Notes under the pieces: generated by a model
The model's database searches: none
What the model saw: the letters and a program-made list of their open reading frames with translations, nothing else
What the model was told of the DNA's origin: nothing
Position numbers and translations under genes: made by a program
Source of the DNA: an uncultured Methylococcaceae bacterium
Lineage (GTDB): Bacteria > Pseudomonadota > Gammaproteobacteria > Methylococcales > Methylococcaceae
Direction of reading: 5' to 3'
NCBI GenBank assembly: GCA_903930145.1
Contig: CAIYXP010000015.1
Span: 1 to 32,668 of the forward strand
DNA: 32,668 bases
Shown: positions 4,806 to 32,668 of the stretch, piece by piece
Layout: the number at the start of each line of letters is the position of its first letter
Position numbering within the stretch: the stretch's first letter is position 1

Positions 4806-5018
4806 TCAAAGCAACGCATTGAATTGTATGGCGGAAAGCCCCGCATCCTTAACAATGCCACCCATCGTAAATGCCTTAATTGGATTGTGACGGGGAATTG
4901 TCAACATTCTTTCACCGTTACTCATGACTATATGCTTGCCTTGCCTGATTACCCGAAACCCTGCCTTTTCGAGTGCGCGTACCGCGTCGAGATGGTTGAT
5001 GCCGGGAATTTTGGACAT
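4806..5018 (-). CDS. hicA: HicA-type mRNA interferase toxin
   Basis: A 70-aa toxin of the HicA/YcfA family, dsRBD-like proteins that cleave mRNA in translation-dependent fashion. MSKIPGI and DAVRALEKAGFRVIRQGKH place the catalytic histidine at H29 (family pattern G-x-H). The family core IPRHNPIKAF and the ending GIVKDAGLS complete the fold. I start at the ATG at 5018, two bases after the hicB stop; a TTG at 5024 would overlap that stop. Either way the toxin is probably translationally coupled to the upstream antitoxin. In this order (antitoxin first) tight repression of toxin synthesis is expected. The pair sits between two core genes, as mobile toxin-antitoxin modules often do. Confidence 0.88.
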   Translation of the reverse strand: MSKIPGINHLDAVRALEKAGFRVIRQGKHIVMSNGERMLTIPRHNPIKAFTMGGIVKDAGLSAIQFNALL

Positions 5019-5020
5019 AA

Positions 5021-5218
5021 TCAAGCCGCAATGTCAATTTCATAGGTTTCGAGTTCTGCACTAAGGTCTTGTATCCCAGCGAGATAATCCTGAATCGCAT
5101 CCTGAATATTACGCAAGGCTTCTTCCTCGGTGTCCCCTTCCGACCAGCAACCCGGCAAGCCGGGAACAGAAACAGAAATTCCATCCTCATTACGATGGAA
5201 AACAACGGTATATTTCAT
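5021..5218 (-). CDS. hicB: HicB-type antitoxin, short form without DNA-binding tail
   Basis: A 65-aa antitoxin with the partial RNase H-like HicB fold: MKYTVVFHRNEDGISVSVPG, then LPGCWSEGDTEEEALRNIQD, then a short helix. It should bind and block HicA. Many HicB proteins carry a C-terminal ribbon-helix-helix or HTH for autoregulation; here the protein ends at about the limit of the HicB core (LETYEIDIAA), so no DNA-binding domain is visible. The ATG at 5218 has a GAGG ribosome site about 8 bases upstream. The gene starts only 20 bases after the fhs stop on the same strand, so read-through from fhs could drive the module. Loss of autoregulation is an inference from length. Confidence 0.88.
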   Translation of the reverse strand: MKYTVVFHRNEDGISVSVPGLPGCWSEGDTEEEALRNIQDAIQDYLAGIQDLSAELETYEIDIAA

Positions 5219-7166: not shown

Positions 7167-7178
7167 TATTTGGACGAC

Positions 7179-7922
7179 ATGAGCAACCCATTATTTGACT
7201 TAGACACCCTCAAAGCTGAACTTGCCGACCATAACCCCCGCGCAGTCCTAAGCGCAGCACTGGAATATTTTGGCAACAACCTTGCCGTGTCCTTCAGTGG
7301 TGCGGAAGATGTGGCTGTGGTTCACCTTGCTTCCAGACTGAAGCCTGGAATCAATGTTTTCTGCTTGGACACTGGACGCCTTCACCCGGAAACCTACCGT
7401 TTTATCGAAAAAGTGCGTGAACAATTCGACATTAACTTGGAAGTGTTAAACCCGTCAAGTCAGGAGTTGGAAAATTTCGTCAGGGCCAAGGGATTGTTCA
7501 GCTTTTATCAGGATGGACACACGGAATGCTGTGGCATACGCAAGGTTGCACCTTTGCGCCGTAAGCTTGCCACAGTGGGCGCCTGGGTGACTGGTCAGCG
7601 CCGCGACCAGAATCCAACTAGATCGGACTTGGAAGAAGTGGAACTGGACACCACCTTTTCAACGCCCGAAAAATCACTTTACAAATTCAATCCCATGGCC
7701 AAATGGACTTCAGCCCAAGTGTGGGACTATATTGAAGCCTACGAATTGCCCTACAACGAGTTGCATACCAAGGGTTTCATCAGCATTGGCTGTGAACCCT
7801 GCACCCGCACTGTGCTGCCTAACCAACACGAACGCTCCGGGCGTTGGTGGTGGGAAGATGCCACAAAAAAAGAATGCGGACTCCATGCCGGGAATTTGCA
7901 TGAATCATCAAACGGTCATTGA
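7179..7922 (+). CDS. cysH: Phosphoadenylyl/adenylyl-sulfate reductase, Fe-S (APS reductase) type
   Basis: Assimilatory reductase releasing sulfite from activated sulfate in the cytoplasm. It is 247 aa from the ATG at 7179; a TTG at 7170 would add three residues. The PP-loop region is [16 protein letters not shown] (35-50). A CC pair (C117/C118 in TECCGIRK) and CxxC (C205/C208 in GCEPCTR) together form the [4Fe-4S] ligand set that marks APS-type rather than E. coli-type PAPS reductases. The catalytic cysteine is C233 in ECGLH near the C-terminus. By family knowledge this set indicates APS as the likely substrate, with electrons from thioredoxin; some Fe-S enzymes also accept PAPS. No other cys genes are adjacent. 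It is divergent from fhs. Confidence 0.95.
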
Positions 7923-8039: not shown

Positions 8040-10592
8040 ATGAATCAGACTATTCAAAGAAACTCAGATTTCGGGTTGATGGATAAGATTGCCCTACCCA
8101 TAGCCATCATCGCGCCACTGATCTATATCATACTATGTGCGATGATTGGGGCATTATTAGCCTATCCTCTCCATTTTATTTTCCCTGCATCGTTTGAATA
8201 TCAAGCCTTAGTCTATAAATCCGCAGAATTATTGATGGCCTTAGGCTTATTTCCCCTAGGACGTTGGGCAGGAATGGGCAAAGCAGATATAGGACTTGTT
8301 GGCCCGATTGGATTGCTGCTTCGGCAAATAGCTAAGGGGTTTGGCTGGGGTGCGTTGATGCTAGGCATTCATGTACTGGTTCTAATAATTTTGGATGTGC
8401 GCCTGCTCTACCAAGATAAACTATACCTCGCTAAAATTCTCAGCTTGTCTTATAAAGGGGTATTGATTGGATTGGCAGTGGCCTCCTTGGAAGAGCCGAT
8501 ATTTCGGGGGTTTCTATTTGGGTACATGCTCAAAAAGACCAACCCCTGGAAAGCGGCCTTAATCGCTTCATTTTATTTCGCAGCCTTGCATTTTCTGAGT
8601 ACCGATTTAAACCCTGAATTTTCCGATATTCGTTGGAATACGGGATTCATTATCGTCTTGGATGCGTTTAAAAATCTGTTTCACATTCATTTTGACTCGT
8701 TCTTGGCATTATTTGCCGCTGGTGTTTTTCTCAGTGTCATCAGGCTATATTTTTCCGATTCAGGGCTGAGTTATTGCATAGGCATTCATGCTGGTTGGGT
8801 TTTCGTCATCAAAGCCACCAAGCCTTTGAGCGAACACAGTATCATTTCCCCGTATACGAATTTTGTCAGTGATTTTGATGGTAATATTGGGTATCTGTCG
8901 GCCACATGGACGACTCTATTGACTGTTTTGTTAATCAATGCCATGAAAAGGCGAGCAGAGCACTCTTCCCAAACTGCCGCTATCATTGCGGTGACCGATA
9001 AGCCAGCCTCTTTGAACAGCCTAGGCGAAAAATGGATGATTATTAAATACTGGCTGAAACAAGCGTTATCTCACTGGTGGAAAATGCATAACTATTCAAT
9101 TAACAATATTTCTAAAATTAACTTGGCAATTGGCAGTGTTCTGCTATTAACTCTGATCAGGTTATTGTTGGCGGGTAAAACCGAACTGATACCCGAAGAG
9201 AGTTATTATTGGACCTATAGCCAGCACCCCGCTTTAAGTTACTTTGACCATCCACCCATGGTGGCATGGATGATTTCAATCGGTACGGCAATTTTCGGCA
9301 ATACGGAACTCGGCGTTCGCTTTGTCGCGATTTTACTCTGGCCGTTTTCTGCATTATTGCTATTTTCAACCGGTAAGTTATGGTTTGACGAAAAAGTCGC
9401 TGCCATTGCCGTTTTGCTATTCTGCCTTTGCCCAGTGTTTGTCGGTGTGGGTTTTATCGTAACTCCGGATTTCCCCTTGGTGTTTTTTTGGTTGCTGACC
9501 ATGAATGCCATCAGTCGGGCACTCTTAACCCATCGTAATGGTTTTTGGTTATTGGCTGGCATCGCTTTTGGTTGTGCCATGCTATCGAAATACACGGCAG
9601 TCATGTTGTCAGCTTCGCTATTATTGTTTTTATTGGCATCACCCAAAGCCCGATTCTGGCTACTGCGCCTTCAACCCTGGTTGGCATTGCTGCTTGCCTT
9701 TGTCGTGTTTAGCCCCGTCATTGTCTGGAACTCGCAACATCAATGGGCATCCTTCCTGTTTCAATCCAACCGCACGGAAGTGGGGAACAATGACCCGCTC
9801 CGCGTGGAAGTGGGTATGTTTTGGCTCTATCAACTTTGGGCTTTGACTCCATTCATCTTCGGTTTATTTTTCTATACGCTCTTCCCTGCCATTCGCCGCG
9901 CATGGACACAACGCGAAGACCGATGGATTTTCACGATGTCTTTTGCGCTCCCACTTTACTTGGTGTTTGTCTTAGCCAGCTTCAAAACCAAAGGTCACAT
10001 CAACTGGACCGCACCTGCCTATTTGTCTTGGTCCCTAGCCGCTGCCGCCATTTTCTGGCAACTCGATAAAACATGGCTCAGCTTACGACCTATTGCTTGG
10101 CGATGCATAATCGCCGCAACGGTACTAATAGCCATTGCCGCCAATACCTTGGTCCATACCAGTTTGGCTTGGGGTTTCCCACAAAAATATGCCCTGAAAA
10201 GTGCTGGTGGTTGGCAAGGTCTCGCCTCCGCAGTCGGCAAGGCCCGTGAAGAACTGAGCCAGAATACCGGCAAACCGGCTTTCATACTGGGTATGGACAA
10301 ATACAATATTGCCGCAGAAATGGGGTTTTATTTGCAAGAACCTGTCGATATAGTCAATGATTATGCCTTGGGTTCTTCGGGTTTGGGCTACCGTTATTGG
10401 GTGGACTTGAAGAACCTGGAAGGCCGTCCGGCTATCGCCATCTTGGATCATAACAAAATTGGCCCTTATTCGATTCTTTGGCTACAACAACATTTTGACA
10501 GGCTGGATGAATGGATTCCAATGGAAATTCAAGGGGATGGACTGCAAAAGCGCAAAGTCTATTTGGTGAGAGCTTATGGTTATAAGATTTGA
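8040..10592 (+). CDS. Fusion of CPBP-type intramembrane protease domain and GT39-type glycosyltransferase
   Basis: An 850-aa polytopic membrane protein in one unbroken frame. Residues about 15-305 are a CPBP (Abi/CAAX-like) intramembrane protease region with all three expected motifs: LEEPIFRG with E151, E152 and R156; FYFAALHF with H184; and GIHAGW with H250. After a polar linker (about 303-355), residues about 358-850 match the ArnT/PMT-like GT39 family. The first luminal loop reads LIPEESYYW...YFDHPPMVAW (383-410), and VTPDFPLVFFW follows later. GT39 enzymes move sugars from polyprenyl-phosphate donors onto lipids or proteins in the periplasm. The usual DE acidic pair is EE here (E386/E387). 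The domains may act together on a membrane substrate, but that is inference. The ATG starts 117 bases after cysH; the next gene follows 52 bases later. Confidence 0.85.
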   Translation: MNQTIQRNSDFGLMDKIALPIAIIAPLIYIILCAMIGALLAYPLHFIFPASFEYQALVYKSAELLMALGLFPLGRWAGMGKADIGLVGPIGLLLRQIAKGFGWGALMLGIHVLVLIILDVRLLYQDKLYLAKILSLSYKGVLIGLAVASLEEPIFRGFLFGYMLKKTNPWKAALIASFYFAALHFLSTDLNPEFSDIRWNTGFIIVLDAFKNLFHIHFDSFLALFAAGVFLSVIRLYFSDSGLSYCIGIHAGWVFVIKATKPLSEHSIISPYTNFVSDFDGNIGYLSATWTTLLTVLLINAMKRRAEHSSQTAAIIAVTDKPASLNSLGEKWMIIKYWLKQALSHWWKMHNYSINNISKINLAIGSVLLLTLIRLLLAGKTELIPEESYYWTYSQHPALSYFDHPPMVAWMISIGTAIFGNTELGVRFVAILLWPFSALLLFSTGKLWFDEKVAAIAVLLFCLCPVFVGVGFIVTPDFPLVFFWLLTMNAISRALLTHRNGFWLLAGIAFGCAMLSKYTAVMLSASLLLFLLASPKARFWLLRLQPWLALLLAFVVFSPVIVWNSQHQWASFLFQSNRTEVGNNDPLRVEVGMFWLYQLWALTPFIFGLFFYTLFPAIRRAWTQREDRWIFTMSFALPLYLVFVLASFKTKGHINWTAPAYLSWSLAAAAIFWQLDKTWLSLRPIAWRCIIAATVLIAIAANTLVHTSLAWGFPQKYALKSAGGWQGLASAVGKAREELSQNTGKPAFILGMDKYNIAAEMGFYLQEPVDIVNDYALGSSGLGYRYWVDLKNLEGRPAIAILDHNKIGPYSILWLQQHFDRLDEWIPMEIQGDGLQKRKVYLVRAYGYKI

Positions 10593-10644: not shown

Positions 10645-11364
10645 ATGAAGATGGTGTCCGCATCCCTTTCCAAACCCGGTGGCAGGGAAATCAACCAGGA
10701 TTCGCTTGGTTTCTTGCCTCCAGAGTCAGGCTTGGGTTGCTGGGTCCTGGCTGATGGACGTAGCGAGATTGCCTCGAAGTCGGCGGTCAAAGTGATCTTG
10801 GAAAACTTTGCCGGCAACCCCGCCATTTCCCAGCCCGCCCTATTGCGGGTCATGGAATGGGCGCAGACAAAGACCCTTGATTTGCAAAGCGCACAACCCA
10901 TGAACCGTTCTGTCTATTCCTCGGTTGCGATGTTTTGCAGCGGGGGTTTGTCGGCGATATGGGCGCATGTGGGCAATGTCAGAATTTATGCTTTCCGTGA
11001 CGGTGAAATTATTTCCCAAACCAAAGATCACAGCATCGCTCAAGCCCTTGTTGATTCCGGCCAACTGAAGTTCGCAGAAATCCGTAGCCATCAGGAACGT
11101 AAAAGCTTGCTTCGTACCTTGGGTGGTCTGGGTGGAATGCACCCTACTCTATTGGAAAGCCGTTTTAAGTTGCAAACCGGTGATTTATTTCTAATTTGTA
11201 CAGACGGTTTTTGGGAATATGTCACCGAATTGGAAATGCAGGCTGACTGGTGCAAAAGTTCCAACTTGGCGGATTGGTTGGAAAGGATGGAAATGCGCCT
11301 ATTGTCAGTGGCCCCGACTGACAATGACAATTACAGCGCCATCGCTTTGATGGCGGAAGCATAA
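10645..11364 (+). CDS. PP2C-family protein phosphatase, compact, with variant motif 2
   Basis: A 239-aa soluble PP2C-like Ser/Thr phosphatase. Metal-site residues appear kept: NQDS (17-20), LADG (35-38), CTDG (185-188) and DNDN (226-229). Two normally strict stretches differ: the usual ADGMGG is ADGRSE, and the usual GDSR is GNVR (110-113). It may therefore be a divergent but active phosphatase or a regulatory phosphatase-fold protein. No TM segment or extra domain is seen. The ATG at 10645 is preceded only by a weak GGTAG. The next PP2C gene starts 5 bases after its stop, so the two are surely co-transcribed, and the CPBP-GT39 gene 52 bases upstream may belong to the same unit. No Ser/Thr kinase or FHA protein lies in the window. 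Confidence 0.82.
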   Translation: MKMVSASLSKPGGREINQDSLGFLPPESGLGCWVLADGRSEIASKSAVKVILENFAGNPAISQPALLRVMEWAQTKTLDLQSAQPMNRSVYSSVAMFCSGGLSAIWAHVGNVRIYAFRDGEIISQTKDHSIAQALVDSGQLKFAEIRSHQERKSLLRTLGGLGGMHPTLLESRFKLQTGDLFLICTDGFWEYVTELEMQADWCKSSNLADWLERMEMRLLSVAPTDNDNYSAIALMAEA

Positions 11365-11369
11365 GCCAA

Positions 11370-12449
11370 ATGACCGACCTACGTTTAGGCACTGCCCAAA
11401 TTCTCGGTGAACGGGAAGAGCAACAGGACTCGTATGGTCACACCTCACAAGATGACGATGCAATCGCTACCAATGGCGGAATCATGGCAGTGGTTGCCGA
11501 TGGTATTGGCGGTCATGCGCATGGTGGGGATGCCAGTCGGCGAGCGGTTGCTGCATTTTTGGAGCATTACCAAAGCGGACAACTGCACAATGACTTGCCT
11601 AACGCTCTTTATCATGCCTTGATCCAAGCCAATCACGCAGTGTTGGATTTCGCGGAAAGCCAAGGGGAAGTGGAAAATTGCGGCACTACCTTGATTGCGA
11701 TGGTCATGCATCACGAATCGCGCTGCCTGCACTGGATTGGCGTTGGCGATAGCCGTTTGTATTTGTTAAGGAATGGACAATTGGCACAGTTCACAGCCGA
11801 TACCAATTTCGCCGACCATCTCGCCAAGAAAGTCGCTCGCGGAATCGCAAGCAGGAATGATTTATTTGCGGAAGAAAATCCCCATCGGCTGACCAGTTTT
11901 CTGGGTTTGAAAAAACTCGGCAAGATTGACCGTAGCATCCGCCCTTTCCCGCTCCATCAAGGCGATGTGGCGATGATCTGCACCGATGGCATCTACAACG
12001 CCCTTAGCAAAGAAGAATTGTCGCATTGCCTGTCAGAGGAACCTCAAACAGCTTGTGATCGCATCATCCAATCAATCCTGGAAAAACATCACGACCATCA
12101 AGATAATGCCACAGTGGCCGTGCTCGCCTTTGGGTTCAAGGATTTAAACAAACATGATTTGCCAGTGTCGAAAGTTTCTGTTGCAGATCCCAATACAACG
12201 GAGTCAATTGATTCCGGTGAACCAAGCGAAATTAAACATCCGGCAAAATTACGTCTTTTGATCTTGGGCATTCTGGCTTTAGGCTTGATGATTTTGCTTG
12301 GCTTTCTTTGGCTGCAACACACACAAGATGTTAATCGGGTCGAGCAAAAAATTGTCGAGGAGACAAAGCCAATTGAGCCAGAATTGAAGATTATAAAAAA
12401 ACCGGAACAACCCCCGCGCAAAACCAACCAAAAAAATAAAGTTAAATAA
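11370..12449 (+). CDS. PP2C-family serine/threonine phosphatase with C-terminal TM anchor
   Basis: A 359-aa phosphatase with complete PP2C motifs: QDS (19-21), VADGIGGHAHGG (42-53), GTTL (105-108), GVGDSRLYLLRNG (124-136), CTDGIYNAL (204-212) and DNATVAV (245-251). Mn/Mg-dependent dephosphorylation of Ser/Thr proteins is expected. After the catalytic domain (to about 257) comes a 35-residue linker, one TM helix (about 295-316, LLILGILALGLMILLGFLWL), and a charged Pro/Lys-rich tail. The phosphatase domain is thus tethered on the cytoplasmic face and the tail lies outside. It follows the compact PP2C by 5 bases. Such phosphatases commonly pair with PknB-like kinases or type VI secretion loci, neither of which is seen here. 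It converges on ligA, with 70 bases between stops and no evident hairpin terminator. Confidence 0.9.
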   Translation: MTDLRLGTAQILGEREEQQDSYGHTSQDDDAIATNGGIMAVVADGIGGHAHGGDASRRAVAAFLEHYQSGQLHNDLPNALYHALIQANHAVLDFAESQGEVENCGTTLIAMVMHHESRCLHWIGVGDSRLYLLRNGQLAQFTADTNFADHLAKKVARGIASRNDLFAEENPHRLTSFLGLKKLGKIDRSIRPFPLHQGDVAMICTDGIYNALSKEELSHCLSEEPQTACDRIIQSILEKHHDHQDNATVAVLAFGFKDLNKHDLPVSKVSVADPNTTESIDSGEPSEIKHPAKLRLLILGILALGLMILLGFLWLQHTQDVNRVEQKIVEETKPIEPELKIIKKPEQPPRKTNQKNKVK

Positions 12450-20619: not shown

Positions 20620-23600
20620 TTAACTCTCCGTTAGCCGTATTAGGGCTTCACGGGCTTTCTTATAGTCAATTTTGCCAACATGGCGCTTGAGCTGTTGGTA
20701 AAGATCGAGCCGGTCTGCCGGTGTCACTGCTTCAAGTTGTGACATCAACTCGTCGGGTATCAAATATTTTTGCGCCAAAAGCTGATCGATGCGGGCCGAC
20801 TTATGCTTAAACTCTTGTTCGCTTGCGATTTGGGAGGCAATGCCATCAGCGGTTCGCTGCAAATCATCCAATGTCATCCTAGCGGCTCGAAAAGCATTGC
20901 GCAAAAGGCCAAGCGTCTCGAAATTGTAGAAACCCTGCTTCAATTCTTCGTCTAGCTTTTGACTGGCCTCACTCAGATTAATTGCACCCACATTGCCCGC
21001 CGTGCCTTTAAGCTGGTGCAAATGCCACTCGGCACTTTTCAAATCATTCGCCGCAATGTTAGCCTCAATCTTTTCCATGGTTGCCATCACATCTAGCCGG
21101 AATTGCAACAACAGGCTGATAACGGCTTCCTGACTTCCCAAGCCGTCTTCTAGTTCTTCCAGATCGAACTCCGGTAATTGTAGCGTATTGCCTACTTTAT
21201 TGTGGTGCAGCGGTGATAACCCAGACCATTCTTCCGACATTCTAGGTCTAACCCAAAGTTTCAAGGTATCGAGTAGTTCTTCGGGTTCAATGGGTTTTGC
21301 GATGAACCCATTCATGCCACTGGCTAGCGCCCTTTCACGCTCAAGCTTCGTCACCCCGGCAGTCAAGGCAATGACAGGCAAATTGGTGTAACGGGCATCC
21401 TCGCGCAACTGGCGCGTTGCTTCCAAACCATTCATTTCCGGCATATTCACATCCATGAGCACGGCATCGAAATGCTCACGCCGAAGCAAGGCCAACACTT
21501 CATAACCATTGGAGGCGGTTCCCACTTGAATACCCACCCTTTGCAAAAACTCACAAGCAACCTGCCGATTGATCGGGTGGTCTTCCGCCACCAGTACCCT
21601 GATTCCGCTCAAGTCTTCCATGCGCTCAACGGCATCGCCAACTACACGAATTTGTGGATGCTGGATTTGCCGCACAAGTTGGGCCTCCTGGTTGGACTTG
21701 GCTAGTTTAAAAGCTAGGTCGAATTTAAACACAGTACCCTTCCCCGGCGTACTCTCCACCTGGAATTCGCTGCCCAACAATTCTAGCAGTTTGCTGCTAA
21801 TCGCCAAACCTAAACCCGTGCCGCCAAAGCGGCGGGTTATGGAGGCATCCGCTTGGGTGAAGGGTCGAAATAAACTGGCGACAGCTTCTTCATTCATCCC
21901 AATGCCAGTGTCTGCGACCTGAAAAGACAATATCACTTTATCTTGATCCATTCTATTGAAAGCAACCCCAAGGGTGATACCTCCAGTTTCCGTAAACTTC
22001 AAGGCGTTGCCCAATAAGTTTGTCAGCACTTGTTGCAAACGAAGAGAGTCCCCGTTCAACACACGCGGCACATCACTGGCTATGACAAGGTCTAGTGAAA
22101 GGGATTTTTCTTCGGCATGGTAAGAAAACAGATTGCGCAAGTTTTCCAGCATTTCACCCAGGTCAAAAGTGATGTCATCTATCGACAACAATCCGGCTTC
22201 AATTTTCGAATAGTCGAGTATGTCATTCAGAATTCTGAGCAAGCTATCCGACGAACTGTGGACCTTTTCTAAATAACTCCTCACCTTGGGCGACAAGGCT
22301 TGATCTAGGGCTAACCGTGTCAACCCCAAGATGCCGTTCATCGGTGTTCGGATTTCATGGCTCATGTTGGCAAGGAAATCAGATTTAGCCCTAGCCGAAG
22401 CATGGGCGGCATCCCGTGCCGCGATCAATTCCTGCTCAATCTGGTGTCTGTCCGTGATGTCAATGAAGAGCGAGACATGGTTTGTAATCTCATCATTGCC
22501 ATTCCTGACCGTGGAAATAATCTGCCATACCGGAAAAATTTCCCCATTTTTTCGCCGGTTCCAAATCTCACCCTGCCAATTGCCATGGGTTTTCAACTGA
22601 GCCCAAAGTTCCCGATAGAATGCCTCCCCGTGCAACCCGGATTTAAGCAGACGTGGATTGTTGCCAATCACCTCGGCAGCCGAATAGCCAGTGACTCTAG
22701 TAAAAGCTGGATTGACCGATAAGATTCGATTGTCGGAATCCGAAACCAAAATTGCCTCGCCGCTGCTCTCGAAAACCTGGGCCGCAAGCCGAAGTTGTTC
22801 CTCGTCCTTCTTTTGCGAGCTGATATCTTGCAAGGCCGCAATAAAGTAAAGCGGTATTCCGAGTGTGTCCCTCAACAAATAAATCGACGCTATCACCCAA
22901 ACGATTTCGCCCCCTTTTTGAACAAGCCGCCTTTCCATGACTGAACTATGGCCTGCGTCATCAACCAATTCCTGCACGGATGACATGCTAGTTTCAATGT
23001 CTTCAGCATGAATGATTCGTTGAAAACTGATCCCTTGGGACAATGCCTCTTCCTGGGAATAACCGATGATTCGACTGAACTCTTGGTTAATTTCAAGAAA
23101 TTGACCCTCTAGGGAAACCCGTGCGATTCCCACCGCTGCATTTTCAAAGACAGCGCGAAAACGCTGTTCATTTTCGGCTAAAGCGTCCTCAATACGCTTG
23201 CGCTGTATGGCCGATGAACAAATCAGTGCAATCTGTTCGACCACCGCCAAATCATGATCTGCGTAATCGAAAGCTGGATTGGCAAGAGCGACCCGCCCCA
23301 TCAGGCGGTCTTCAATCAAAGCAGGCACTGACAAAATGCCATGAATATGCCTATTTTCGCCGTGAAACTCCTCTAAACCAGCGATAGTTTCTGGGTGGTT
23401 GGTGAAAAACGCTTTTTCCGTCAAGTGAGTCAATGACCAAAGCCTATGAAAAATATTATCCTGTGTGTGGCGGATAGCCATGTGATCCCCTTCTCCTTCT
23501 TGGGAAAACTCCATCTTCAATGCTTTCCCATTCACTTGGGAATGTCTGCTCTTGAGTGTTTCCGGATCGACAATCGATACATATCCGCTTTGGCTCAGGG

Positions 23601-25044
23601 TAAGTGAAAGAGCCACCTCCAAGCTAGTATCCAATATCTCTTGCACGTTCGCCGCTGGCTTAATCATGGCTTGGGACAATTCGGCCAATGCGGCATTCAC
23701 CTTGACATCGTAGGCGAGGCGGGCTTCCATTTTCTTTCGTTCGGTAATGTCTTGGAATGACCCTGCCAACCATTCCATAGTCCCATCCTTTCCCCTTTCC
23801 GCCTGCCCTCGTGCCACGCAATGGTGAATCTCCCCATTGGCTTGAATTGCCCGCAGTTCGATCTCATAAGGCAAACCCTTGTCAATGGCATTTTCAACAG
23901 CGATTCGGAGTTGTTCCATGTCTTCAAGTGGAAACATAGCCGGATGCTCTGCAAATGAAGGCGGACTCTTTGAGGGGTCGCGCTGAAATAAGCGGTACAA
24001 TTCGTCAGACCAAGTTACCGTATCGTCCTTCACTTGCCATTCCCAACTGCCAATTTTTGCAAGGGATTCGGTTCTCGCTAACATGGACTCCTTATGGCGT
24101 AAAGCCCTCTCCGCCAGTTTCCTTTGGGTAATGTCTCGCCCTGAGCAATAAACCAGGGATCGCCCCCCAATTTCCACACCCACGGCATTGATTTCGACTT
24201 CAAGCACACTGCCATCACTACGGCGGTGTAGGGTTTCAAAGGTTGCATCCCCGTCAAAGAATGTAGAAATAATCCTTTTCAACTCGTCCGGGTACCATTG
24301 CGCATCCCATTGCGCCACGTTCATGGTTTGCATTTCTTGCTGACTGTAGCCAAGCATCCTACAAAAAGATTCATTTACCTGAATGACATTCCCGTCTAAA
24401 TCCAGCACATGGATGCCATCCCCCGCCGTGCGCAACAGGGTTTCATATTTCTTGCTTTCCAGCATCAGCACTTCTTCCGCCTGTTTGCGCTCGCTGATGT
24501 CCATCATCATGCCGATAAAGTAGTCTGGCCTTCCTTGGGAGTCCCGCACACATTTCACCACCAAATGTACGAAAACGACATGTCCGTCTTTATGGATGTA
24601 ACGCTTCTCCAATTGGTAGGAATCGATTTCCCCGCGAATGGCCTGATCCAGCAATGCTTGATTAGCCGCCAAATCATCGGGGTGAGTCAGCTTACCCCAG
24701 TCCAACGCTTGCATTTCCTCCTTGGTGTATCCAACCATGTCGCAAAAACGCTGATTGACATGGATTGTGCCTTTGGTATGTTTGGCCGTTAACATTCCAA
24801 TGAAGGGTTGTTCAAAATAATGCGCCAATTCGCCTTCCATCGTCTTGATGCCATCAGATTTTGCGTAGGATTGGGCATTCAAAGGCTCTACAGAAGCAAG
24901 CTGTGACCTAAGTTGGGCCAAGGCATCTGACAATTCAATAGTGCGCAAGCTCACAGCACGTTCGAGGTAAATCAGCCAAAGCTTGCGGACGGACAACCCC
25001 ACCAAAAAAGCGGCAAGAAGGGAGATGAAAAATAACTCAGTCAC
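20620..25044 (-). CDS. Multi-PAS/GAF hybrid sensor histidine kinase with REC and HPt domains
   Basis: Large phosphorelay protein, about 1474 aa from the GTG at 25044. One N-terminal TM helix (about 2-22) is followed by PAS1 (about 70-185), PAS2 (198-315), PAS3 (330-440), GAF (450-615), PAS4 (628-745) and PAS5 (755-870). HisKA carries H896 in MSHEIRTPMNG. HATPase_c shows NLLGNALKFTETG, DTGIGM and GTGLGLAIS. A receiver follows with D1198 in VLMDVNMPEMNG, and then an HPt domain with H1343 in HQLKGTAGN. All four phosphotransfer domains look intact. The frame stays open 58 codons further upstream, but that stretch lies inside thiD and shows no membrane or domain logic. The GTG overlaps the thiD stop by 8 bases and begins the TM helix directly (TELFFISLLAAFLVG). 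A ~125-residue tail of unknown role follows HPt. Confidence 0.92.
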   Translation of the reverse strand: MTELFFISLLAAFLVGLSVRKLWLIYLERAVSLRTIELSDALAQLRSQLASVEPLNAQSYAKSDGIKTMEGELAHYFEQPFIGMLTAKHTKGTIHVNQRFCDMVGYTKEEMQALDWGKLTHPDDLAANQALLDQAIRGEIDSYQLEKRYIHKDGHVVFVHLVVKCVRDSQGRPDYFIGMMMDISERKQAEEVLMLESKKYETLLRTAGDGIHVLDLDGNVIQVNESFCRMLGYSQQEMQTMNVAQWDAQWYPDELKRIISTFFDGDATFETLHRRSDGSVLEVEINAVGVEIGGRSLVYCSGRDITQRKLAERALRHKESMLARTESLAKIGSWEWQVKDDTVTWSDELYRLFQRDPSKSPPSFAEHPAMFPLEDMEQLRIAVENAIDKGLPYEIELRAIQANGEIHHCVARGQAERGKDGTMEWLAGSFQDITERKKMEARLAYDVKVNAALAELSQAMIKPAANVQEILDTSLEVALSLTLSQSGYVSIVDPETLKSRHSQVNGKALKMEFSQEGEGDHMAIRHTQDNIFHRLWSLTHLTEKAFFTNHPETIAGLEEFHGENRHIHGILSVPALIEDRLMGRVALANPAFDYADHDLAVVEQIALICSSAIQRKRIEDALAENEQRFRAVFENAAVGIARVSLEGQFLEINQEFSRIIGYSQEEALSQGISFQRIIHAEDIETSMSSVQELVDDAGHSSVMERRLVQKGGEIVWVIASIYLLRDTLGIPLYFIAALQDISSQKKDEEQLRLAAQVFESSGEAILVSDSDNRILSVNPAFTRVTGYSAAEVIGNNPRLLKSGLHGEAFYRELWAQLKTHGNWQGEIWNRRKNGEIFPVWQIISTVRNGNDEITNHVSLFIDITDRHQIEQELIAARDAAHASARAKSDFLANMSHEIRTPMNGILGLTRLALDQALSPKVRSYLEKVHSSSDSLLRILNDILDYSKIEAGLLSIDDITFDLGEMLENLRNLFSYHAEEKSLSLDLVIASDVPRVLNGDSLRLQQVLTNLLGNALKFTETGGITLGVAFNRMDQDKVILSFQVADTGIGMNEEAVASLFRPFTQADASITRRFGGTGLGLAISSKLLELLGSEFQVESTPGKGTVFKFDLAFKLAKSNQEAQLVRQIQHPQIRVVGDAVERMEDLSGIRVLVAEDHPINRQVACEFLQRVGIQVGTASNGYEVLALLRREHFDAVLMDVNMPEMNGLEATRQLREDARYTNLPVIALTAGVTKLERERALASGMNGFIAKPIEPEELLDTLKLWVRPRMSEEWSGLSPLHHNKVGNTLQLPEFDLEELEDGLGSQEAVISLLLQFRLDVMATMEKIEANIAANDLKSAEWHLHQLKGTAGNVGAINLSEASQKLDEELKQGFYNFETLGLLRNAFRAARMTLDDLQRTADGIASQIASEQEFKHKSARIDQLLAQKYLIPDELMSQLEAVTPADRLDLYQQLKRHVGKIDYKKAREALIRLTES

Positions 25045-25822
25045 AGTGCAAACCGGTCCGGTTTGGTAACCACTGGCCTTTGCCCAATGGAAAACCTGTC
25101 GCCAAGGAATCCCAAGTGAATTGTTGAGCTTGAAGACAGGCAAGCTCCATCGCCAACCCATTGGCAAGTCCCGCTGCCAATGCCGACGCCAATGTGCAGC
25201 CCGAACCATGATATTCATGAGGCAAACGGGGCCACTGCCATGACTTCATGCCTTGTGGCCCATATAAGCGATTGACCACTTCAGCGCTGCTGGAATGCGT
25301 CCCGGTGATGAACACCTGTTGGCAACCAAAGCCCATCAAAACAGTTGCGCATTCGTCAGGGGATTCCATGACAGACAACTGCCGTGCTTCAGGAATGTTG
25401 GGGGTCGAAACGAAGGTCAAGGGCAATAATTGATGCCGGATAATATCCAACAAATCTTCCTTTGCCAGCGGTGTACCCCCGCCAGCGGCCAAAACGGGGT
25501 CAAGCACCACCGGTATGCCCGTCAACTCGGCTTTTAATAATTCGACGACCGCCATGGCAATTTCGGAGGAACCCAACAAGCCGATTTTAACCACGCTGAC
25601 GGGCAAATCCGCTATCAATAAGCGGGACTGTTGTAGAAAATCGAATTTATTTTGGGGTAAGATCGTCACTACATTGGATGTGTCTTGGGCTGTCAACGCC
25701 GTCACCACCGTGCATGGACGGCAACCGAGTGCAGACAGAGTTTCGATGTCGGCCTGCAATCCTGCGCCACCCGTAGGGTCGTGGCCGGAAAAACAGAGTA
25801 CTATGGGTGGCGGGTTGGGCAT
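25037..25822 (-). CDS. thiD: Bifunctional hydroxymethylpyrimidine kinase/phosphomethylpyrimidine kinase
   Basis: Cytoplasmic ribokinase-fold enzyme that phosphorylates HMP and HMP-P for thiamine synthesis. It is 261 aa, normal length. The substrate loop GHDPTGGAGLQADI (13-26), VTALTAQDT (40-48), VLDPVLAAGGGTPL (107-119) and the anion-hole motif HGSGCTLASALAAG (205-218, with C209) are all present. It is divergent from the secreted-protein gene across 145 bases. A candidate -10 box TATACT lies at 25857-25862 on the minus strand, although the -35 is poor and no clear ribosome site precedes the ATG. Its stop overlaps the start of the giant hybrid kinase by 8 bases, an unexpected partner for a thiamine gene. 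Confidence 0.95.
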   Translation of the reverse strand: MPNPPPIVLCFSGHDPTGGAGLQADIETLSALGCRPCTVVTALTAQDTSNVVTILPQNKFDFLQQSRLLIADLPVSVVKIGLLGSSEIAMAVVELLKAELTGIPVVLDPVLAAGGGTPLAKEDLLDIIRHQLLPLTFVSTPNIPEARQLSVMESPDECATVLMGFGCQQVFITGTHSSSAEVVNRLYGPQGMKSWQWPRLPHEYHGSGCTLASALAAGLANGLAMELACLQAQQFTWDSLATGFPLGKGQWLPNRTGLHCD

Positions 25823-25967: not shown

Positions 25968-27764
25968 ATGAAAATACTCCCAAAACTCATTTTATGCACC
26001 TTCTTCTGTCACTTGTCCGCGATCACAATGACACCCTTGGCACAAGCCGATTCTTCAGACTATGGCGCGGCCTGCGAAGAATCCGGCGATACCCGCATTT
26101 GGGTTTCGCCTCTCAACCCCAAGCCTTACAGCGCCACGAAGATCATGGCCGTGGCAACCGACGGGGCCATTTCTGACTTGTCAATTGTAGAGAGTGATGG
26201 CAGAAAAATACCGCTACCCTCCAATTCACGAGGTGGACCCCCTTGGAGCCTGTCATCGGTCGTAGACAATCTAGCCGATGGCGATTACCGGATCGAAGCC
26301 CGCCGAAACGGCACTTTACTCGCTTGCCATCCTTTAGTCTTAGGCGGTCGTAATGCCCAAGAGGGACAATCTTTAGGCTGGAATCTTGCCACAGAGGCAT
26401 TTTATTCGGCTTGGATAGAAGAACTGTTTGGCGCACCCGTCGAAGAAAACCTGAGCTTCCCGTCGTTGGAGCCCGTGCTGCGCGACCCTGAGCGAAACTT
26501 TCTCTACAACCATCTTGGTCTGAACGAAGACCGAAACCTGCCTTCCACACCGGATTGCGCAGATTTGCCTTATACCCTACGCGCTTATTTTGCTTGGAAA
26601 GTAGGCTTGCCAGTCGGGTTCAGAACGTGTAGCCGTGGCTCTGCCAATTCGCCACCGCGATGCGGATCTGCCACAGTGAAAACAGAATTCACCCATGGCA
26701 TCGCATCCCAAGGTAATTTTAGGAGTGTCTACGGGCAATTGACCAATGCGGTCCACTCCGGTTCTGCTCGCACTGGGTTGGATGATGAAGCCACCGATTT
26801 GTATCCCGTCCCTCTAAATCGCGAGTCTTTGTGGCCGGGAACCGTCTTTGCAGACCCTTACGGTCATGTGCTGGTTCTGGCCCAATGGGTTCCGCAAACG
26901 GCTGGCAGGCCGGGGATGTTGCTCGCTGTGGACGCACAACCAGACAATTCGGTCACCCGCAAACGTTTCTGGGAAGGCACTTTCCTGTTCGCCAACGTAA
27001 ACAGTGCAGGCCCTGGATTTAAAGTTTTCCGCCCGCTGGCCCGCTCGGGTTCGGGAGCATTGCGAACATTTTCGAATGGCGAGTTAGTCGACAATCCAAG
27101 CTATGCCCCCTTTTCCATGGAACAGGAAAATCTGACACCGGAGGACTTCTATGCCCGCATGGACAAGTTGATTAATCCAAAGGGCTTGCAGCCAAAACAG
27201 GCTTTCGACACCACCTTGGATGCCTTGGCAGAGCAAGTGGAAACGAGGGTGACCTCCGTGGAAAACGGCGAGTCCTATTTTAGAAAAGGCCACGGCAGCT
27301 TCATTGCCATGCCCAGCGGAGCGAGTATCTTTGAAACCATCGGGCCGTGGGAAGATTTTGCCACTCCATCGCGTGACATGCGGCTCATCATTGCCATCAA
27401 CGTATTGAACGGCCTTCCCAATAAAATTGTCCGACACCCGGAATTGTTTGTGCTTAATGGACAATCACCCCAGACCCTGAAGGCCGAAATCGAAGATTAT
27501 CAGGCCCAACGCTTACAAGAGCGTAGAATCCGCTATATCCGCAGCGATGGCAGCTCTTGGGAATTGTCTTTGGCCGATGTATTGGCAAGGAAACAGGCGT
27601 TCGAAATGGCCTACAATCCCAATGATTGCGCTGAAGTTAGATGGGGGGCAAAACCCGGCACGGATGAATATTCCACCTGTCGCCGCCACGCACCCAGTGA
27701 ACAACATGCCAAGATGGAGCAATACAGACCTTGGTTCCGCGATGCCCGGCGACCAACCCGATAA
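25968..27764 (+). CDS. Secreted protein with possible Cys-His-Asp papain/transglutaminase-like core
   Basis: A 598-aa protein of unrecognised function. The N-terminus is a signal peptide (about 1-27, hydrophobic then AQA-D), so it is exported. Residues 30-125 resemble a beta-rich domain (IWVSPLNPKPYSATKIMAVA, LADGDYRIEARRNGTLL). The centre contains STPDCADLPYTLRAYFAWK with C197, then DPYGHVLVLAQW with H300, and a later Asp (VDAQPD, D322). This order and spacing recall papain-fold enzymes (transglutaminase-like or NlpC-like); it is a pattern judgement, not a family match. Several further cysteines could form disulfides. The C-terminal part is charged and soluble. The ATG lacks a clear ribosome site. 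A DUF2272-type lipoprotein gene follows 21 bases downstream, so the two probably work together in the periplasm. Confidence 0.75.
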   Translation: MKILPKLILCTFFCHLSAITMTPLAQADSSDYGAACEESGDTRIWVSPLNPKPYSATKIMAVATDGAISDLSIVESDGRKIPLPSNSRGGPPWSLSSVVDNLADGDYRIEARRNGTLLACHPLVLGGRNAQEGQSLGWNLATEAFYSAWIEELFGAPVEENLSFPSLEPVLRDPERNFLYNHLGLNEDRNLPSTPDCADLPYTLRAYFAWKVGLPVGFRTCSRGSANSPPRCGSATVKTEFTHGIASQGNFRSVYGQLTNAVHSGSARTGLDDEATDLYPVPLNRESLWPGTVFADPYGHVLVLAQWVPQTAGRPGMLLAVDAQPDNSVTRKRFWEGTFLFANVNSAGPGFKVFRPLARSGSGALRTFSNGELVDNPSYAPFSMEQENLTPEDFYARMDKLINPKGLQPKQAFDTTLDALAEQVETRVTSVENGESYFRKGHGSFIAMPSGASIFETIGPWEDFATPSRDMRLIIAINVLNGLPNKIVRHPELFVLNGQSPQTLKAEIEDYQAQRLQERRIRYIRSDGSSWELSLADVLARKQAFEMAYNPNDCAEVRWGAKPGTDEYSTCRRHAPSEQHAKMEQYRPWFRDARRPTR

Positions 27765-27785: not shown

Positions 27786-28541
27786 ATGATCAGATCATTT
27801 GCATTTATCCTTCTAAGCTTGGCGCTGACTGGTTGCGGAAGTTCAGCAAAGAAAAAACCTGTCAGCGCTGTCGAAACTGTCGCACCGCAGACCAGCTTGA
27901 ACGAAATACCCGTCGATTCTTTAAGATATAAAATCATAGAACTCTTGAAAGATGAATGGGTATTTTTCGGTCAGCAGAAAGTGGTCATCGAACAAGCCGA
28001 GGAAAGCATACCCCATGTCGGAATATGGGAGGATGATGATTTGGCGCATAGCGAACGGATCAACCAATATTGGAGAACTGTGGGCATGTCCAGGCTCTCA
28101 GGCATGGATTGCAGACAACCTTGGTCTGCCGCCTTTATCAGTTGGGTGATGCGCGAAGCAGGAGTCCCTAACTATCTGTTCCCATCGGCACCATCCCACC
28201 GGGATTATCTGTCCCATATTATCAGTGTTGGACGCGGCAATCCTGAAGCCTCTTTCGTACCCCATACCATACAAGAGTACAAGCCTAAACCGGCGGATTT
28301 AATCTGCGCAAATCGTGGGACGGGCTATTTTGGCGAAGTGGCTGAGGAACTGCCTTCTTCCTTAAATGCGAAACTTCATTGTGATATTGTCGTTCATGTT
28401 GATGGGCGGAATTTACAGGCAATAGGCGGCAATGTCCGTAATTCGGTTTCAAAAAGCTTATTGACGCTATCACCCGATGGCTATCTGCAATTGACTCAAC
28501 ACCGGCCTTGGTTCCTGATCATTGAAAACCGGCTGGATTAA
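27786..28541 (+). CDS. DUF2272-type lipoprotein
   Basis: A 251-aa lipoprotein. The N-terminus IRSFAFILLSLALTGCGSS holds a lipobox with C17; residue +2 is Gly, so outer-membrane sorting is expected. The mature part matches the DUF2272 pattern: a YWRTVG segment, then DCRQPWSAAFISWVMREAG, a conserved PSHRDYLSHII stretch, and PADLICANRG, with an H(C)DIVVHVD strand late in the sequence. DUF2272 proteins are thought to have a CHAP/NlpC-like fold; the Cys of DCRQPW and the late His are candidate catalytic residues, which is inference. It is second in a two-gene unit after the large secreted protein. Its 3' end overlaps the convergent membrane-protein gene by 23 bases. Confidence 0.82.
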   Translation: MIRSFAFILLSLALTGCGSSAKKKPVSAVETVAPQTSLNEIPVDSLRYKIIELLKDEWVFFGQQKVVIEQAEESIPHVGIWEDDDLAHSERINQYWRTVGMSRLSGMDCRQPWSAAFISWVMREAGVPNYLFPSAPSHRDYLSHIISVGRGNPEASFVPHTIQEYKPKPADLICANRGTGYFGEVAEELPSSLNAKLHCDIVVHVDGRNLQAIGGNVRNSVSKSLLTLSPDGYLQLTQHRPWFLIIENRLD

Positions 28542-29061
28542 GCGGTTCTTTATGTACCCATTCGACGAGTTTGACGTGGATAGCCAGCTTCGTCTTAAGC
28601 GCATGTTGATAGGCGGCTGTTTCACGCAATTGTTCATGTGACCAGTTCAGCCAGCGGGTAATGGTTTGATAGAGTACCGCAAACCAACCAAACGTCATGA
28701 GTTGCTCACGGGTAATGTCAAAAATCCATGAAAGTATCATGGTGGAAAATACCTGGCTAACAATATGCAAGCTTATGCCTTCCACCACTTGTCCGCTGGA
28801 GGATAACGACAGAGCCGTAAACTCGACGGGCAAAAACAGCAAGCTGGGAATGAAAAAAGCGGAAAGGGCTACCCATGGAGGTGAATTGGCCAGCCAGCGT
28901 TCTAAATTTTCCAGATGGTACCAAGCTGTGAGGCAGTGCTCAAAATCGGTGAGCAAATCCCAAAGCCACTCTTCCAACAACACAGAAATCGCAAGGATTG
29001 AGAGGAGTACTTTTTTCGTGGTTTGAATTAAGGAGTCGAAACTGATTCTAATAAAGTCCAT
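28519..29061 (-). CDS. Small membrane protein of unknown function
   Basis: A 180-aa protein with about three hydrophobic segments (roughly residues 18-33, 63-88 and 98-116 in this numbering; WVALSAFFIPSLLFLPVEF is the clearest). It has an acidic EEWLWDLLTDFEH stretch after the first and an amphipathic, basic C-terminal helix. I do not recognise a family with confidence; similar short EEWLWD-containing membrane proteins occur in gammaproteobacteria. I start at the ATG at 29061, which has AAAGG about 10 bases upstream; a TTG at 29082 would add seven residues. It is downstream of ftsH on the same strand but separated by that gene's terminator, so it probably has its own promoter. Its 3' end overlaps the DUF2272 gene tail to tail. 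Confidence 0.75.
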   Translation of the reverse strand: MDFIRISFDSLIQTTKKVLLSILAISVLLEEWLWDLLTDFEHCLTAWYHLENLERWLANSPPWVALSAFFIPSLLFLPVEFTALSLSSSGQVVEGISLHIVSQVFSTMILSWIFDITREQLMTFGWFAVLYQTITRWLNWSHEQLRETAAYQHALKTKLAIHVKLVEWVHKEPLNPAGFQ

Positions 29062-29096
29062 AGTCTGATAGCCTTTGCCCAAGGTTTATGCCAATT

Positions 29097-32195: not shown

Positions 32196-32668
32196 TTAAG
32201 GCATCTGTACGCCAGATTGGCTGACAAACTCATTCCAACGCGCCTCCATCCATTCCAAATCCTTTTTAAATTGCACATGGTTGGGAAAGGCTTGCCGCAA
32301 CTGGCGGCGGAGATCGAGGCTTTCGCGGTAGGCGGCGCGGGCGGGTTCGAGCTTGCCGAGTTCGGCCTCGACTTGGCCCACGTTGTTGAGCGAAATGGAG
32401 AGGTCGCGCAGGGCTTGCGGGGTGTCGCCTAGGCTGTCGCGCAACTGGCGGCTGAGATCGAGGCTTTCGCGGTAGGCGGCGCGGGCGGGTTCGAGCTTGC
32501 CGAGGTCGGCCTCGACTTGGCCCACGTTGTCCAGCGAAATGGAGAGGTCGCGCAGGGCTTGCGGGGTGTCGCCTAGGCTGTCGCGCAACTGGCGGCTGAG
32601 ATCGAGGCTTTCGCGGTAGGCGGCGCGGGCGGGTTCGAGCTTGCCGAGGTCGGCCTCGACTTGGCCCA
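32196..32668 (-). CDS. Tetratricopeptide-repeat protein, C-terminal part (5' truncated by window edge)
   Basis: The frame stays open to the window edge, so only the C-terminal 157 codons are seen. Residues form 48-aa TPR-like units with consensus DLSISLDNVGQVEADLGKL and EPARAAYRESLDL. They are almost identical from copy to copy. The final unit ends in LRQAFPNHVQFKKDLEWM and a short non-repeat tail. TPR arrays are protein-binding scaffolds; in related proteins of this repeat type the N-terminus may carry CHAT, NB-ARC/NACHT or other effector domains, which cannot be checked here. Base composition is striking: one 60-base line counts 72% G+C. The sequence lies 8 bases from the convergent yhbY stop. 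Confidence 0.85.
   Translation of the reverse strand, partial: GQVEADLGKLEPARAAYRESLDLSRQLRDSLGDTPQALRDLSISLDNVGQVEADLGKLEPARAAYRESLDLSRQLRDSLGDTPQALRDLSISLNNVGQVEAELGKLEPARAAYRESLDLRRQLRQAFPNHVQFKKDLEWMEARWNEFVSQSGVQMP
32317..32668 (-). repeat. Tandem 144-base direct repeats inside the TPR gene
   Basis: Copies begin at 32317, 32461 and 32605 (the last cut by the window edge after 64 bases). The two full copies differ at 3 of 144 positions, and the partial one is identical to its neighbour. The period is exactly 48 codons, so copy number can change without breaking the frame. Confidence 0.95.

Follow-up and report, generated by a model that had tools for sequence, protein, structure and literature searches.

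In the CPBP-exosortase fusions, which are of the exosortase E type, a CPBP domain shares one protein with a second membrane enzyme. For the CPBP fold by itself two structures serve as points of comparison, MmRce1 (PDB code 4cad), a type II CAAX protease, and SpdC (PDB code 6u0o). The residues E140, E141, H173, H227 and N231 are named for MmRce1 (PMC10811503), and in myxosortase the oxyanion hole is given as an HX3N motif (PMC11980579). The fold also includes members thought not to be proteases, SpdC and LnsB, and SpdC is said to be without key catalytic residues (both from an excerpt of PMC7387801). SpdC shows in addition that a CPBP fold is able to serve as the partner of a glycan enzyme, in its case the glucosaminidase SagB. 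Among the open-licence PMC papers listed, none on a fusion of CPBP with a GT39 glycosyltransferase was noticed.

The window analyzed here is the whole stretch of 32,668 nucleotides of contig CAIYXP010000015.1 from an uncultured Methylococcaceae bacterium, and it contains a single open frame in which a CPBP/Rce1-like membrane protein is followed by a GT-C glycosyltransferase (PMT_2/GT39, ArnT-like). As in the exosortase fusions, a CPBP domain is joined to another membrane enzyme; that comparison, drawn in an earlier note made from the sequence alone, holds as an analogy only, with no exosortase family among the Pfam and NCBIfam matches of the fused protein at E up to 1. The gene is best explained, with a probability of roughly 0.75, by loss of a stop codon that recently fused two adjacent genes; these were probably co-translated, and their products would work side by side.

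The fused frame and its two domains

The frame lies on the forward strand, starts with the ATG at 8040 and ends with the stop codon closing at 10592, and reads through 850 amino acids without interruption. It is composed of the CPBP part (residues 1-304, 8040..8951), a linker (residues 305-348, 8952..9083) and the GT39 part (residues 349-850 with the stop codon, 9084..10592), all three on the forward strand. The genome of the window (G000) was compared with six other genomes of the genus (G001-G006), and G001 carries the same 850-amino acid frame with 97% identity. Over the gene these two separate draft genomes differ at 73 positions (97.1% DNA identity), four of them inside the linker, and the frame stays open in both. 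The single frame and both domain names of the earlier note are borne out by the open frame itself, by matches to Pfam PF02517 and PF13231 above their cut-offs and by the copy in G001. It is highly improbable that an assembly or sequencing error merged two genes, the doubt that the earlier note had attached to its own reading. The window genome is a draft of 542 contigs and five relatives have two separate genes, but the second draft genome agrees despite its 73 differences in the gene, and because it carries the same frame a sequencing error is excluded as the source of the window's frame unless it were common to both assemblies. Support beyond chance for the parts of the frame comes from the profile scores, from conservation and from the low pN/pS between the two genomes.

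The CPBP part matches PF02517 (Rce1-like) at residues 140-255 (8457-8804) with 40.2 bits against a cut-off of 22.4. Conservation was read from alignment A2, in which 30 of the 38 rows of alignment A1 were kept; it comprises 24 CPBP and 8 GT rows, with each of the two fused proteins counted under both headings. Four distant GT rows of A1 had been placed against the CPBP part and were therefore left out, together with four CPBP rows. E151, E152, R156, H184 and H250 are invariant in all 24 CPBP rows of A2, and the same five residues are constant across the 27 rows of alignment A3. Residue 254, four positions after H250, is a valine in 22 of the 24 rows, the window protein included, and an isoleucine in the other two, so that the HxxxN motif of the oxyanion hole is absent from every row although H250 is present in all. 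The part shares with MmRce1 the Pfam family, the EExxxR motif and a spacing of 33 residues between the first glutamate and the histidine of the second motif (E151-H184 here, E140-H173 in MmRce1), and it differs in Val254, which takes the place of Asn231, in the fused glycosyltransferase and in that it is not known to have a CAAX substrate. This pairing of residues was made by motif and spacing instead of alignment, with H250 taken as H227 by its motif, because usable sequence relatives are lacking in the PDB; none was kept for the whole protein, A2 or A3, and the single match, to a ribosomal protein (E 0.56 and 0.062), was taken as chance. The earlier claim that all CPBP catalytic motifs occur thus stands for EExxxR and the two histidines and is not exact for the asparagine, whose position is held by valine. 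Judged from the aligned rows, the Glu/His core of a candidate protease is present and the oxyanion Asn is absent in every row examined. Order-wide relatives of window positions 8040-8951 mostly have the motif GxHxGW, with Val or Ile for the catalytic Asn.

The predicted structure of the CPBP part has block means of pLDDT between 86 and 97 over residues 21-300 (30-row alignment). VIA-align gives SpdC as the best structural match (Z 15.2 over 236 residues), followed by MmRce1 (Z 12.7 over 233 residues), and Foldseek alone returns 4cad at E 0.029. In contrast to the loss of key catalytic residues stated for SpdC, the window protein retains the Glu, Arg and His residues, and where the partner of SpdC, SagB, is neither a GT39 enzyme nor fused, the partner here is a fused GT39. 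The equivalog cut-off for MrtJ (NF033192, JDVT-CTERM protease) is missed, with 15.7 bits against 75.

The GT39 part matches PF13231 (PMT_2) at residues 403-563 (9246-9728) with 134.4 bits against a cut-off of 26.1, and the acidic residues E386, E387 and D403 are invariant in all 8 GT rows of A2. Its predicted model, of mixed to middling confidence, has a GT-C fold; the best Foldseek match is ArnT (PDB code 5ezm, E 1.6e-4), and VIA-align places it with oligosaccharyltransferases (up to Z 15.7) and ArnT (Z 14.1 over 371 residues). The likeness to the ArnT/PMT_2 (GT39) family thus lies in the domain, the best structural hit and the conserved acidic residues, whereas the score is far from the ArnT equivalog cut-off (NF009784, 33.5 bits against 567). 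In other Gammaproteobacteria GT39 relatives are likewise joined to a membrane module in one frame of 863-920 amino acids, the partner reading by eye as a DPM1-like GT2 at the N-terminus plus a GtrA-like segment (L061 1441-4047, L062 1950-4538, L064 1695-4454, L065 2025-4733, L066 2256-4937). Their GT2 and GtrA-like partner makes biochemical sense in one pathway, whereas the partner in the window is a CPBP protein, and they would agree with a polyprenyl-phosphate sugar as the donor.

The comparison of G000 with G001 gives pN/pS values of 0.16 in the CPBP part (residues 1-304), 0.11 in the GT39 part (residues 349-850) and 0.80 in the linker (residues 305-348). Both domains are under strong purifying selection, indicating that both enzymes are kept. 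The linker value comes from four changes (three replacement, one silent) and does not stand apart significantly from the other parts (p = 0.09 and 0.12 by Fisher's test), so that on these few changes the linker gives no clear sign of constraint and may nevertheless be constrained. The linker is predicted to be disordered, with pLDDT below 50 at residues 320-360, and the junction alignment with the six other genus genomes reads it as the former C-terminal tail and the intergenic spacer, now in frame.

Gene order and history within the genus

Both parts are present in all seven genomes of the genus, fused in two (G000 and G001) and as separate frames in the same order and on the same strand in the other five. 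Identity to the window in G002, G003, G005 and G006 is 65-78% for the CPBP protein and 70-84% for the glycosyltransferase, and in G004 a CPBP protein of 45% identity is followed by a GT39 enzyme of 28% identity. The gap from stop to start, with longest-frame starts, is 1 nt in G003 and G006, 4 nt in G005, 10 nt in G004 and 107 nt in G002. In the trees of both parts G000 and G001 group together with G002 as their sister, with support of 100/99 or better for both forks in both trees, and G005 forms the next branch (83/84 for CPBP, 93/98 for GT39), the other deep forks being weak or open. The fused pair is therefore placed within the unfused members of the genus. The GT39 tree has two outgroup rows on long branches, and in it G162 groups with unfused genus members at an open fork.

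The sister genome G002 shows the unfused state of the junction. Three stops interrupt its CPBP frame ahead of the GT39 start, and the middle one aligns with a TGG codon of the window; as its spacer of 107 nt is not a multiple of three its two genes are in different frames. In the simplest history the stops would have been lost, and the length changed, on the branch leading to G000 and G001. An earlier fusion, one node down, that was afterwards undone in G002 is a possible alternative, since the spacer of this sister genome holds stops in the CPBP frame.

G004 differs from the other members. Its CPBP protein is excluded from the clade that unites the remaining six (99/99), and the GT39 gene behind it, at another locus (L025, 5110-9020), reads as belonging to a separate subgroup; two PAP2-like genes follow there by eye. 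This arrangement is possibly an independent pairing of CPBP and GT39. With G004 counted in, a CPBP gene followed by GT39 in seven of seven genomes is more pairing than one would expect by chance.

The genes on either side of the fused frame are shared by most of the genus. Upstream lies a PAPS reductase domain protein (cysH-like, 7170..7922, forward strand), with a cluster member in the same place in five of the seven genomes, and downstream lie two PP2C-type phosphatases (10645..11364 and 11370..12449, both on the forward strand), of which the latter seems by eye to end in a membrane segment at its C-terminus; cluster members of the two lie downstream in five of the seven genomes, the same five for each. 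All three were assigned by Pfam on the window copy. The contig of G002 stops just past its GT39 gene. None of these genus neighbors points to a glycan pathway.

Elsewhere in the window, within 20620-25822, a frame of 1532 amino acids with PAS-like and kinase-like parts by eye overlaps a 261-amino acid frame on the same strand (25037-25822) by 182 bases; the long gene probably has its true start further in. Nearly identical tandem TPR units (Pfam) at 32196-32666 continue to where the contig stops, perhaps because the assembly broke inside a repeat. The frames at 25968-27764 (598 amino acids), 28519-29082 (187 amino acids) and 4918-5205 (95 amino acids) have no Pfam match at E 0.01.

Distribution outside the genus

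The CPBP part taken as a query finds matches, mostly one per genome, in 283 of 311 genomes of the order and in every one of its 50 genera, counts that include the fused proteins. Among the matches listed the frames are 249 to 501 amino acids long, the two fused frames (listed as 856) excepted. A frame spanning both parts was found with the whole-protein query in two of the 311 order genomes, G000 and G001, among the matches listed, and in the window's genome alone among 369 genomes of the class and 299 of the phylum, both evenly drawn samples. These wide searches score at most a few candidates per genome, so that distant fusions could be missed; a row spanning both parts should rank near the top. 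A conserved CPBP-GT39 fusion family was looked for in these samples and not found.

The pairing as separate genes is likewise confined to the genus in the loci sampled. No GT39 profile match stands beside the CPBP gene in any of 27 genomes outside the genus (23 from the order and 4 from the class) in which 1 kb or more of downstream sequence is available, and the three genomes of the original 30 set aside for having less than 1 kb are also without one. For 12 non-genus CPBP loci the neighbors were read by eye; in six the stretch holds tig-, clpP- and lon-like genes, and other neighbors read as cmoA or aldolase genes. From the side of the glycosyltransferase, a CPBP match occurs in only one of 30 PMT_2 loci from the phylum sample (L075-L104), which is the window's own (L084). 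The long GT39 frames of 863-920 amino acids (L061-L066) have no CPBP inside, and the long CPBP frames and their neighbors (L067-L070, L072-L074) show no GT39.

Close relatives of the window's GT39 are found in other families of the order (L047 65-1621 in G162 with 60% identity, L028 18279-19787 in G039 with 48%), a distribution suggestive of transfer from one lineage to another. The contig that carries the CPBP gene of G039 is not that of its GT39 gene, and none lies within the 20-kb GT39 stretch; in G162 the contig starts just before the GT39 gene and its upstream neighbor is out of view.

Possible products and roles of the fusion

In a stop-loss fusion the first gene would be the mostly single-copy CPBP/Rce1-like membrane protein carried across almost the whole order and the second an accessory GT39 glycosyltransferase that stands directly behind it in this genus. 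Comparison of the genomes indicates that the ancestor shared by G000 and G001 lost the first gene's stop and that the short spacer was brought in frame with the second, probably in this order. The product would be two membrane modules with a flexible linker between them, each module functioning as it does when apart. ArnT-type enzymes have their N-terminal beginning in the cytoplasm, and because the CPBP tail is also basic the linker is probably cytoplasmic. By family likeness the GT39 part most likely uses a polyprenyl-phosphate sugar to modify an acceptor of the envelope, on the periplasmic face, while a membrane substrate of its own is most likely what the CPBP part acts on or holds. The two parts need not share a substrate, and the benefit of the fusion, if any, may be that expression is fixed at 1:1 where it earlier depended on translational coupling.

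The fused gene retains features of a separate GT39 gene. The ATG of Met349 (9084..9086, forward strand) falls where the unfused sister genes have their GT39 start codon and is a possible internal start, and just upstream is the ribosome-site-like motif GGTGGA (9076..9081, forward strand). Its pairing with the 16S tail is calculated at -6.0 kcal/mol, the best of ten listed in-frame start codons between 8851 and 9200, and at -7.0 in the same place in G002. Internal initiation near 9084, which the earlier note had set against a single protein, thus gains weight as a possibility, and with the old start and its site kept a free GT39 may still be made alongside the long form. That the cell makes free GT39 also or even mainly, by a start at this ATG or by cleavage of the linker, for which the predicted disorder would speak, is nevertheless given somewhat less than an even chance; it concerns the products and is compatible with the fusion explanation. 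About 6.5% of positions in the gene reach -6 or better, the site could be a remnant of the recent fusion, and as there is no stop ahead of 9084 ribosomes initiating at 8040 necessarily make the long form. Scores at the GT39 starts in G003, G005, G006 and G004 range only from -3.3 to +0.6, and that of the 8040 start is -0.7, so that initiation rates are not readable from these scores. The retained start and site are suggestive of a second product and are not proof of it.

The earlier note proposed that processing and glycosylation of a membrane or exported substrate are coupled in this protein. Here the CPBP part would process or hold a substrate that the GT39 part glycosylates, and the fusion would fix a pre-existing complex. 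The genus offers some support, as GT39 directly follows CPBP in all seven genomes, in G004 with an apparently different GT39 subgroup at another locus and a CPBP protein outside the clade of six. Translation of overlapping genes is tightly coupled, and the proteins of such a pair are often subunits of one complex (PMC10666635); CPBP-fold proteins with co-workers are known, SpdC with SagB and LnsB with LnsA, the contact of the latter two being putative (excerpt of PMC7387801). Against these stand the CPBP part in 283 of 311 order genomes with GT39 alongside at none of 27 loci outside the genus, the tig-clpP-lon, cmoA or aldolase neighbors read there by eye, a linker with no clear constraint, and the lack of a noticeable sorting-tag substrate gene among the adjoining genes as read. 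What survives of the proposal is the constant order of the two genes in the genus; on adjacency within one genus a coupled function is possible but rather unlikely. Less probable again, and drawn by analogy with SpdC-SagB and perhaps LnsB-LnsA, is a role for the CPBP part, with its Glu and His kept and the oxyanion Asn missing throughout the rows examined, as the membrane scaffold or acceptor-presenting subunit of GT39; a core CPBP protein would then have been recruited by the genus as a GT-C partner at least twice, at the main locus and in G004, and the fusion in G000 and G001 would be its covalent complex.

Recent stop-loss fusion accounts for these observations as what looks like a young, lineage-limited accident of gene order with both parts intact, not an established new enzyme, and reading the gene as a coupled enzyme would over-read the finding. 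The locus presents a gene fusion caught early, in that a single genus displays the neighbors still unfused, the nearest sister with its spacer, the one-frame form and the start codon left behind. The comparison further indicates an uncharacterised CPBP subfamily, present in nearly all of the order and mostly as a single copy.
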